The position numbers were made by a program, and so were the translations under genes. From positions 1 through 64,000 of the forward strand of contig CAMCUD010000005.1 of assembly GCA_945878865.1 (NCBI GenBank): a DNA stretch of 64,000 nt, read 5' to 3'. Numbering within the stretch: position 1 is the stretch's first letter; the number at the start of each line of letters is the position of its first letter. Below are positions 30,427-39,842 of this stretch, one piece after another. This DNA is from Bifidobacterium breve (GTDB lineage Bacteria; Actinomycetota; Thermoleophilia; Solirubrobacterales; Solirubrobacteraceae). The notes below the pieces were generated by a model. That model had not been told where the DNA came from. It ran no database searches and saw nothing but the letters and a program-made list of their open reading frames with translations.

Positions 30427-31611
<1,185 letters not shown>

Positions 31612-31673: not shown

Positions 31674-33788
<2,115 letters not shown>

Positions 33789-33824
33789 GAGAGCGGGGGC
33801 GTACCTTGCTTCGGGCAAAAGAAA

Positions 33825-33842
33825 CGGGCCCTCTCGGGCCCG
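33825..33842 (-). terminator. Terminator/attenuator hairpin in the fusA leader
   Basis: Minus strand CGGGCCC, GAGA, GGGCCCG, then TTTCTTTTG: a canonical intrinsic terminator. It lies 36 bases before the fusA ATG and downstream of the only good promoter, so it should attenuate fusA-tuf unless disrupted. Confidence 0.7.
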
Positions 33843-33876
33843 CGCGCACGACCGGTGGATGACCGGGGCCGACGCG

Positions 33877-33897
33877 CTATGTGCCGAGGGACTCCAT
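33877..33897 (-). CDS. Possible six-residue leader peptide (MESLGT) before fusA
   Basis: A minimal ORF, ATG through TAG, lies between the TGCTATAGT promoter and the terminator hairpin. Ribosome occupancy here could influence folding of the downstream hairpin. No clear Shine-Dalgarno precedes it, so its translation is unproven. Confidence 0.25.
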
Positions 33898-33933
33898 TCG
33901 TGAGGACCGCGCCGGAGAACGGCGCGACGGGTG

Positions 33934-33942
33934 ACTATAGCA
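33934..33942 (-). promoter_or_regulatory. Extended -10 promoter of fusA-tuf
   Basis: The minus strand reads TGCTATAGT: a TG extension and a near-consensus -10 (TATAGT). It predicts a leader of about 140 bases. No -35 match is seen at 17-18 bases, as usual for extended -10 promoters. Confidence 0.6.
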
Positions 33943-34621: not shown

Positions 34622-35818
34622 CTAGTACGTGAAGCGGGCGACAACCGCCTCGAGCGACGCCGCGCGCTCGTGGAGCTCCCGGCTCGACGCGGCGACCTGC
34701 TGGGTCGACGCGCTCGTCTCCTCCGCCGACGCCGACACCTCCTCCGTTGACGCGTTGGCCTCGGTCGCGACCGTCGCGACCTCGTCCGTGGCGGCAGCCA
34801 CGCGGTCGATGCAGCCCGAGACGTCCTGGATGCTCTGCGCCAGCCCCTCGAACGCGTCACGCGTCTTGGCGACGGTCTCCGCCGAGGACTCCGCGAGCCT
34901 GCGCACCTCCTCCGCGACCACCGCGAACCCGCGGCCGTGCTCGCCGGCGCGGGCCGCCTCGATGGCCGCGTTGAGCGCCAGCAGGTTGGTCTGGTCGGCG
35001 ATCGCCGCGATCTCCGCGGTGAACGCGACCCCCTCGTCGGCGACGCTCCGCGCCCGTCCGGCGAGGTCCACCGCCTCGCCCGTGACCTCGCCCACGGACC
35101 GCACCAGCTGGACCTGGCGCTGCGCCCCCTCGGCGACGGACCCCGACGCGACGGCGATCTGCTCGATCGCTGAGCCCGTCTCCTCGGTCGTCGTCGCCAT
35201 CTCGCGCGTGGCCTGGGTGAGATGCTCGGCGGTGTCGCTGAGCTCGTGCACCATGTCGGCGATCCCCAGCCGCGACGCGTCGTAGGCGCGCAGGCCGCCC
35301 TGCGCACGCGAGAGCATGTCGTTGAAGACCTCCGCGAGGTCACCGACCTTCTGGCCGGGCGCAGCGGTGATCGGCTCGGTCACCGGATCCGCCGTGACGG
35401 TCAGATCACCCGCGGCCATCGCCTCGAGACCCGCGCCCAGCCCCGTCAGGCAGTGGTCGTTGAGGCTGCGCATCCTTGCCCGCAGGTCGTCGAGCGAGGA
35501 CTGGTCGCCGAGCGCCTCGCGCAGCTGCTCACGCAGCGCCGTGTAGCTCGCGATCGCAGACTGGGCGCGGCGGAGCATCGAGTTGAAGACGCCGACGAGA
35601 TCGGCGAGGTCCTCGTCGTCGGTGGACAGTTCGATGGGCGCGGTCACGGGCACCACGTCCTGCGTCATGTCCCCGCGCGCCATCGCGGCAAGACTGCGCT
35701 CCAGTCCCGACAGGCAGTGCTCGTCGAGACTGTGCAGCCGCTCGCGCAGCGCCGAAACGACCGGGTCACCGGATGGCGCGGCGGGGGGTCGAGGGGCAGA
35801 ACGGCGGGAAATGGCCAC
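34622..35818 (-). CDS. Soluble chemoreceptor-like protein with two HAMP-like repeats (paralogue 1)
   Basis: 398 residues from the GTG at 35818, chosen for the AAGGA upstream; the frame is open to 35872. It has no membrane segment. Two tandem 88-residue-spaced modules ([21 protein letters not shown] and [21 protein letters not shown], Cys35 and Cys123) resemble poly-HAMP. A coiled-coil signalling domain follows, with the MCP hairpin tip [20 protein letters not shown] and [17 protein letters not shown]. It should be cytoplasmic. No CheA, CheW, CheR or CheB gene is nearby, so its output is unknown. It is about half-identical by eye to the next gene. Confidence 0.88.
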
Positions 35819-35966
35819 GGGCGACGGTCCTTGTCTGGCTGAGGCGGGGACGGACCCGCGGAACCGGGTCACCCAAGAAATCGGAGCCTCGCGCGCCGAC
35901 CTTGAGCGAGCCTTCCCGCGATCCGCCCCGCAACCAGCGACGGGAGGCCGCCCGCCGCCGCGGATC

Positions 35967-38003
<2,037 letters not shown>

Positions 38004-38011
<8 letters not shown>

Positions 38012-39473
38012 CAGCGGCCTCACGCGGAAGCTCGATGGTCACCGCGAGCCCGCCCCCGAAGGGCGCCCACCCGTGGGCACAGCCGCCATGCGCCTCGGCG
38101 ATCGTCCGGACGACGGCGAGCCCCAGGCCGGTGCCCTCCTTCCCACGCTGATCGCCGCTCTGAAAGAAGCGATCGAACAGCCGCGGGAGATCCTCGTCGG
38201 GCACGCCGGGTCCTTCGTCGCGGACCTCCAGCACGGCACGGCCGTCAGCCGGACGGACATCGACGACGATCTCCGTGTCCAGCGGTGCGTGCTTCAGCGC
38301 GTTGGACAGCAGGTTGTCGATGACCTGGCCGAGCCGGTCGACGTCCCCCCGCATGGGGACCGACGCCGCGCCTGTCTGGCGGATGCGGACCGAGCCGGCC
38401 GCGGCCGCAGGAGCCGCCGATCCGACCGCGTCGGCCGCGACCCGGACGAGATCGAGCGGTGCGACCTGCAACGCGACGCGATCGAGGTCGTCACGGGCGA
38501 GCAGCAGCAGATCGTCGACCAGGCGGATGAGTCGGCGAGCGTTGCGGTCCACGACCTCCAGCTGCTCGGCCTGCTCCTCGTCCGCCGGGTGCTGCCGCAG
38601 GAGCTCGACGAACATCGTCATCGCCGCAAGCGGCGTGCGGAGCTCGTGCGACGCCGACGCGATGAACAGGTCCTTCGACCGTTCCAGCCGTCGGATCTGC
38701 GTCAGGTCATGCAGCGTTCCGATGTAGCCGCACGGCTCAGAGGTCCCGGGGTCGCAGTCCCGGATCGGGACCGCGCAGCTCAACACGTTCCCGGTGCTGC
38801 CGTCGTGACGCACCACCCGGTACTCGTGCGCAAAGGCCTCGCCCCGCGCGCCGGTCGCCTGCCACGCCGCGCTCAGTCCTTCGAGATCCTCCGGATGGAC
38901 AGCTGCGAGCCAGCGTGAGCCGATGTCCCGGCCACGCGGATGGCCGAGGATCTGCCATCCGCTCTCGCTGACGAACGTCGCGCGGCCGTCACCGTCCAGC
39001 TCGTAGATCCCGATTGGCGAGCTCTGGACGAGTGCGCGGAAGCGCAACTCGCCGCGGCGCACCTGCTTGAGCGCGAACTCGCGTGCAGAGACATCGCGGT
39101 AGTGCCACAGGTGGCCGTGATACTCGTCGTCGATCCACAGCGGCACGTAGTCGCGTTCCAGACGCCGGCCCGCGGCCATGACCACCGGCTCTCCCGTGAC
39201 CTGCACGCGGTCGGCGAGGATCTCGTCGATGCGGGCGACGAAGCCCTCGGGATCCGCGAAGAGACCCGCTGAGGCCTCGGCCGCTCCCGCGCAGTCGGTT
39301 CCCACGAGGTCCTCCGGTGCGGCGGGGATGCCGAAGAGCTCGCAGAACGCCTGGTTGACGACGACGATGTGCCGCCGCTCATCCTCGAGCAGCACCCCGC
39401 CCACCAGGCCCGCGATCACCCGTGCGAGCCGGGGGTCTGCTGCTGCCGGAACGAGATCCGTCTCGCTCTCCAT
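38004..39473 (-). CDS. Soluble PAS-PAS histidine kinase
   Basis: 489 residues from the ATG at 39473 (MESETDLVPAAADPRLARV); the frame is open further upstream and the start is uncertain. Two PAS domains (~20-130 and ~145-260; the second contains IYELDGDGRATFVSESGWQI). HisKA has His276 in ASASHELRTPL. HATPase has the N box LLSNALKHA, G1 DEGPGVP and G2 GTGLGLAVV. It has no membrane segment, so it senses an internal signal or bound cofactor. It should phosphorylate the adjacent regulator. Confidence 0.92.
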
Positions 39474-39842
39474 ACGAGACACAACGGCTTGGCCCCGCCG
39501 GCAGGCCACCACTCGGCGTATTCCGGGGACGTCTGTTCGCCCGCGCATCCCGAGTTCCGGGGACCTCTGCATGGAGGCTCCGGTCGCGGGACCTCGGAGG
39601 GCCTGGTGTCCCGCGACCGGAGTGTTCCATGGCTTCTGCGAAAGCCGGGAGGCGGATCACGGCGCGCGGCTCCACCCTTGAGCGCCGCGACCGCCTCCCG
39701 GCGAACCACCCGGGGTGGTCCGTCCCGGGCTGCTCACTGGTCCTCGCACCGCAGGTATCGGCGCGGCAGGTATGGGTGAGGTTCCAGCTCCGTGACGGGA
39801 GCGTGTCAGCGGCGGCGCGACGTCAAAGACGCCGCGAGGGGA
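39474..39842. other. 369-bp intergenic region between rpsG and the histidine kinase
   Basis: It contains a long inverted repeat (39570-39631), two TTCCGGGGAC.TCTG copies beginning at 39531 and 39555, a short palindrome ACCACCC/GGGTGGT near 39705-39720, and a weak rpsG stem at 39817-39835 (one mismatch, AAA loop). No ORF with coding character was found. The kinase promoter must lie here, but no convincing -10/-35 was recognised. Confidence 0.6.
39570..39631. repeat. Long inverted repeat downstream of rpsG
   Basis: 39578-39592 and 39608-39622 are perfect 15-bp inverse copies with a 15-nt loop. Outside them CATGGA/TCCATG pair again after short internal loops. No T-tract follows on the minus strand. 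It could be a terminator, an operator or a mobile REP-type element. Confidence 0.6.

Follow-up and report, generated by a model that had tools for sequence, protein, structure and literature searches.

A short reading frame and an intrinsic terminator conserved before fusA-tuf in Solirubrobacterales suggest a translation-sensing attenuator

How elongation-factor supply is matched to ribosome number in bacteria is an old question, and the leader described here raises it anew: could translation of a very short reading frame decide how much fusA-tuf message is made? The leader lies on the minus strand of contig CAMCUD010000005.1, of which positions 1-64,000 were analyzed (this whole 64-kb stretch is called the window below). 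In the direction of transcription it consists of an extended -10 promoter element, a 5' hairpin (P1), an upstream open reading frame (uORF) of six codons, a second hairpin (P2), an intrinsic terminator and the ATG of fusA. We consider it probable that this leader, which stands upstream of the genes for the elongation factors EF-G and EF-Tu, attenuates transcription in response to uORF translation; the view, including attenuation itself, is built on sequence, comparison and computation. We know of no description of direct translation-sensing control of native fusA-tuf in Actinobacteria.

The original prediction for this region listed the extended -10, a GCGCCG/CGGCGC stem, the MESLGT reading frame, a terminator and the fusA ATG 36 bases further on, and all of them are found as described, to the base (Table 1). 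The motif TG.TAT..T occurs a single time on the two strands of the window taken together, namely as the extended -10 at 33942-33934. The 7-bp GC terminator stem with its GAGA loop (CGGGCCC-GAGA-GGGCCCG) is present, and it has 8 pairs if the basal G-U is counted; the 36 bases to the fusA ATG at 33788 are measured from the 7-bp stem. The list had overlooked P2, a hairpin that covaries and lies between the uORF and the terminator; its 5' end is the G of UAG, and its last two bases are shared with the terminator base. The genes downstream are the native ones, i.e. a true EF-G (TIGR00484) followed by EF-Tu. Taken alone the terminator is unremarkable: terminator-like sites are not enriched (2 in 10 kb vs. 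2.0 +/- 1.7 in shuffled sequences), the fold energy of the leader does not stand out from shuffled sequences either (z = -0.99), and Rfam families gave no match up to E = 1 between positions 31000 and 37000. It is thus the conservation in relatives, not terminator or fold statistics, which argues that the leader is not a product of chance.

fusA was located in 146 genomes of the family and 90 family leaders were read, together with a sister-family sample of 18 fusA leaders from three families of the same order, giving 108 leaders of the order in total. The promoter, an open reading frame of 5-7 codons and the terminator stand at conserved spacings in 76/90 family leaders and in 15/18 sister-family leaders, so the stem and reading frame proved to be shared by relatives, the comparison on which the original prediction had staked itself. 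TGCTAT is found approximately 43-86 nucleotides upstream of the uORF in nearly all relatives, and the terminator (a hairpin followed by a T-run) is present in all 76 uORF-bearing family leaders, usually 32 nucleotides past the stop. A covariance model built of the leader was used to scan the panel and, with stricter filters, 100 genomes. It returned one strong match per genome, the fusA leader (E = 4e-16 in the window genome), just two marginal additional matches across the panel (E 0.02-0.03) and no match in the scanned genomes outside the order; one order member (G150) was either missed by the stricter scan or lacks the leader. In nine fusA leaders from other orders of the class the element is absent, and there rpsG closely precedes fusA. 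We assign the element to the order Solirubrobacterales, since a named relative, a Solirubrobacterales metagenome-assembled genome (L092, DAIDJO010000030.1), carries the leader with the uORF METLQN followed by a stop. Some leaders have the promoter and a terminator-like hairpin with no uORF (L067 of G002, L039 of G050, L186 of G318 and L188 of G198), as if the sensor had been lost and a fixed terminator retained. In two further genera, g13 (L084, L089, L090) and g21 (L085-L088), the GCTATAGT promoter is retained in front of a different leader that has no uORF and carries other conserved strings immediately 5' of the fusA ATG.

The variability of the uORF follows a clear pattern: the frame is kept and the peptide is free. 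The 91 uORF-bearing leaders of the order hold 73 distinct uORFs. Six codons are found in 85 leaders, seven in four and five in two; each of these six length variants is thus in frame. The start is ATG, except for GTG in G130, and the stop is TAG in 69 cases, TAA in 18 and TGA in 4. The consensus is M-E-T/S-x-x-x, with a second codon that is almost always GAG and a third that is usually ACN or TCN; residues 4-6 are variable among the distinct uORFs, and single-base changes between near neighbours are synonymous in 15 of 74 cases (27% expected). What had been pointed out as a six-codon reading frame is therefore conserved as a reading frame (start, stop, length and first residues), not as a peptide. 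The exchange of stop codons, the in-frame length variants and the GTG start suggest that the uORF is selected for frame, start, stop and length, and it may be translated. The variable residues 4-6 and the lack of a synonymous excess speak against a nascent-peptide arrest leader; since the residues past M-E-T/S are free to vary, the data point to ribosome passage itself. An amino-acid biosynthesis attenuator is ruled out as no regulatory codon run occurs in the 73 distinct uORFs, and an N-terminal extension of EF-G because the start codons of uORF and fusA are 109 nucleotides apart, which puts the two in different frames.

A codon bias is also present in these uORFs (leaders L002-L091 and L172-L189). 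In 52/73 distinct uORFs the codon before the stop is NNA, mostly ACA or AGA, against 2.7% NNA codons in the genes of the window, and the uORF stops avoid TGA, which is the commonest stop in those genes (22/42); both backgrounds are the genes of the 64-kb window only. In genera g10 and g17 (L044, L052, L058, L061, L065, L070, L073, L076, L078 and L080) the apparent Shine-Dalgarno sequence of the uORF (GGAGG or similar) is part of the 5' hairpin, where it belongs to the 3' strand and faces a strand of the CCTC type, and we speculate that uORF initiation itself might be controlled by this hairpin there.

The RNA structure on both sides of the uORF was analyzed across relatives. The region 5' of the uORF ATG is structured (mean z -1.58; 21/34 below -1). 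For P2, 88% of the cells are paired in 20 leaders, and the covariation score is 0.241 as compared to 0.175 in shuffled alignments (0/500) and 0.134 at best when the structure is slid; this subset was used because P1 and P2 are too divergent for alignment across clades. RNAalifold run on all 73 leaders recovered the terminator stem alone. Note that the basal pairs of the terminator occupy P2's own columns 37-38.

The original prediction had proposed RNA folding in search of an antiterminator, and alternative structures were indeed found, with shuffled controls. The full-ensemble probability of the terminator was computed for natural leaders and for leaders whose upstream part was dinucleotide-shuffled. 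The no-ribosome probability is 0.64 in natural leaders as compared to 0.80 after shuffling; once a ribosome is placed on the uORF stop, the two figures become 0.87 and 0.82. The tendency holds for genus averages (n=30), where the no-ribosome probability is 0.57 vs. 0.78 in the shuffled set (p=0.006) and the response to the ribosome is larger than in shuffles (p=0.007), while blocking the 5' hairpin in the model had no such effect on the terminator. The leader sequences are related, meaning that these p-values, like the following one, are indicative even at the genus level. The 20 nucleotides past the stop complement the 5' arm and loop of the terminator better than shuffled sequences do in 24/30 genera (p=0.0012), whereas the complementarity of the uORF and of the upstream/5' region to the terminator arm is not above shuffled across genera. 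In the sister families a post-stop CCGGGC matches GCCCGG, and in G260 both sides are changed, CAGGGC facing GCCCTG. For the window leader, minimum free energy (MFE) folding gives -55.6 kcal/mol with no ribosome, in which case the uORF pairs with the terminator, vs. -53.6 kcal/mol with the terminator forced; placing a ribosome on either the start or the stop codon lets the terminator form in the model. The modelled switching has statistical support across genera, but if the genus of the window is taken by itself the support is weak.

These features can be combined into a mechanism, whose direction is best read from the models as follows: uORF translation would favour termination and poor translation would favour read-through, a logic like that of whiB7/wblC. 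A ribosome starting on the uORF would reach the stop after five translocations and cover about 12 nucleotides beyond it. In doing so it would remove the strand that otherwise pairs with the 5' arm or the base of the terminator; the terminator would form and most transcripts would end near 33817. When EF-G or EF-Tu ternary complex is low, or under starvation or ribosome-targeting drugs, ribosomes would initiate or move poorly on the uORF, the post-stop strand could pair with the terminator 5' arm (in the window genome the uORF itself could pair as well) and RNA polymerase would read through. EF-G, EF-Tu and then the S10 operon would rise, which amounts to a negative feedback loop through which translation capacity would act on the supply of elongation factors. 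It is only the gene context from which we infer what the trigger may be (EF-G, EF-Tu, drugs or starvation). The S10 operon is probably also governed by the switch, which presupposes read-through from tuf into rpsJ. A more specific version is conceivable, but we hold it to be rather doubtful: the leader would be a dedicated sensor of elongation capacity in which the peptide-independent six-codon frame, with its rare NNA codon and RF1-type stop, clocks the passage of ribosomes (EF-Tu delivery, EF-G translocation and recycling) relative to RNA polymerase, and this timing would set transcription of EF-G, EF-Tu and the S10 operon order-wide.

Conserved anatomy and competing folds thus support the translation-responsive attenuator that had been proposed, and a number of points weigh against it. 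In the lineages of G002, G050 and G318 the uORF is missing although promoter and terminator are retained. The pairing of the post-stop strand with the terminator is unconvincing in genus g1 and several other genera, and genus g24 shows no switching. In the window leader the alternative fold is just 2 kcal/mol better and uses the 3' half of the terminator, which means that its formation may come too late; the folding is thermodynamic rather than co-transcriptional and ignores kinetics. Finally, there is no synonymous excess among the uORF changes, and a Shine-Dalgarno-like sequence is recognisable before just 24/91 uORFs.

Some of these points would be expected if ATGGAG...ACATAG were an untranslated RNA motif that merely resembles a reading frame: the Shine-Dalgarno sequence is weak or absent before most uORFs, synonymous changes are not in excess and ACATAG is conserved as nucleotides. 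Yet TAG exchanges with TAA and TGA and never with a sense codon, ATG has become GTG once and the six length variants are all whole-codon, which makes this explanation very improbable in our opinion. An attenuator of opposite sign seems less remote, although still unlikely. Here ribosomes stalled on or crowding the uORF would block the terminator, and read-through would follow directly when translation, or recycling at the stop codon, is slow. This is a common layout of antibiotic-inducible leaders, and the rare NNA final codon would slow ribosomes near the stop; however, a ribosome bound at the stop reaches only to about +12 while the terminator begins some 32 nucleotides past it, and modelled stop-bound ribosomes increase the terminator probability rather than decrease it.

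The terminator might also simply end transcription from rpsL-rpsG or other upstream genes and trim fusA expression by a constant amount, with the reading frame having no regulatory part. The leaders of G002, G050 and G318, which carry a terminator without a uORF, are what one would expect in that case, and rpsG is not far upstream in many relatives. On the other hand, a conserved promoter stands between rpsG and the terminator, rpsG and fusA of the window genome are 6 kb apart and separated by four signalling genes, and without a role the uORF would not have kept its fixed length and spacing in four families; we thus regard a constant terminator as improbable. Slightly less probable still is a leader in which P1 or P2 is the binding site of a ribosomal protein (S7, L4) or an elongation factor that controls termination, as in other str/S10 leaders. 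A structured P1 is predicted in every clade that was folded, S10 and L4 are among the downstream genes and ribosomal-protein attenuators are known for str/S10 operons (PMC2965389), but Rfam families gave no hit to the leader up to E = 1, the sequence of P1 varies widely between clades and the reading frame would be left unexplained.

The translation-sensing attenuator can be compared to known systems. In whiB7/wblC of Actinobacteria, full translation of the uORF is reported to favour the terminator, and impaired translation the antiterminator (review PMC11550727, and Lee et al. 2022 cited there). Both leaders, from the same phylum, contain a uORF followed by a Rho-independent terminator, and the proposed logic is the same. 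The target of whiB7/wblC is a resistance and stress regulator, as opposed to native elongation factors here, and our reading frame has just six codons, conserved in frame and not in peptide; the two are likened by layout and logic. The masking logic is that of ilvB/ilvBNC and trp-type attenuators, in which a stop-bound ribosome masks the antiterminator and the terminator forms (Mycobacterium tuberculosis ilvB1, PMC13236596), but here there is no regulatory amino-acid codon run and codons 4-6 vary freely. Attenuators had been predicted in the same operon, before rpsL and directly before streptococcal fusA (Naville and Gautheret 2010, PMC2965389). Attenuators before native str-operon genes have thus been predicted earlier, although none of those is from this group: they belong to other phyla, were discussed as possible S7 sites with no uORF described, and no sequence in common with our leader was seen. 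The Sinorhizobium meliloti DUF1127 attenuator also depends on uORF translation and was proposed to monitor ribosome availability (PMC12218461); it controls another gene, and its attenuation element consists of C-rich codons at the uORF start. Literature searches for an element of the present kind in this group returned no report.

If the translation-sensing attenuator is real, one switch would govern EF-G and EF-Tu and, probably, the large S10 operon as well, and with it these soil actinobacteria probably tune their elongation factors to translation performance. The leader is just about 110-150 nucleotides long, which makes a reporter test of the idea feasible. The unusually small, apparently peptide-independent uORF might also offer a simple system in which to study the control of termination by ribosome presence alone.

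Table 1. Features of the fusA-tuf leader and the genes that follow it (positions in the window)
Feature	Position	Strand	Basis or remark
Extended -10 promoter element TGCTATAGT	33934..33942	-	predicted transcription start ~33927
P1, 5'-terminal hairpin UCGCGCCG-UUCUC-CGGCGCGG (GCGCCG/CGGCGC stem)	~33907..33927	-	folding
uORF ATGGAGTCCCTCGGCACATAG, ATG GAG TCC CTC GGC ACA TAG (MESLGT, stop)	33877..33897	-	kept in relatives
P2 hairpin	33842..33877	-	paired columns and covariation
Intrinsic terminator stem-loop GCGGGCCC-GAGA-GGGCCCGU	33824..33843	-	sequence; hairpin and T-run in relatives
U-tract TTTCTTTT	33817..33824	-	sequence; predicted 3' end of attenuated transcripts
Predicted antiterminating pairing, uORF 33899-33884 with 33837-33822 (terminator half and U-tract)	33822..33899	-	MFE folding
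fusA (elongation factor G), presumed first gene under regulation	31674..33788	-	TIGR00484 EF-G, 1115.6 bits
tuf, elongation factor Tu	30427..31611	-	S10-type ribosomal protein genes next

The str operon is split in the window genome. rpsG is located at approximately 40313-39843, 6 kb upstream of fusA, and the interval between them (34622-39572) contains four genes, two of them chemotaxis-receptor-like and the others for a response regulator and a histidine kinase; the rpsG-fusA gap is much shorter in most of the relatives checked. On the other side of the two genes, the tuf-rpsJ spacer (30426-30290, minus strand) contains GC hairpins, one of them terminator-like (30412-30386), and a GATACGA motif recurs in this spacer in most family members read (hairpins and motif were followed in L003, L006, L008, L009, L011-L014, L018-L020 and L023-L028). 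The spacer is possibly a second promoter or leader for the S10 genes.
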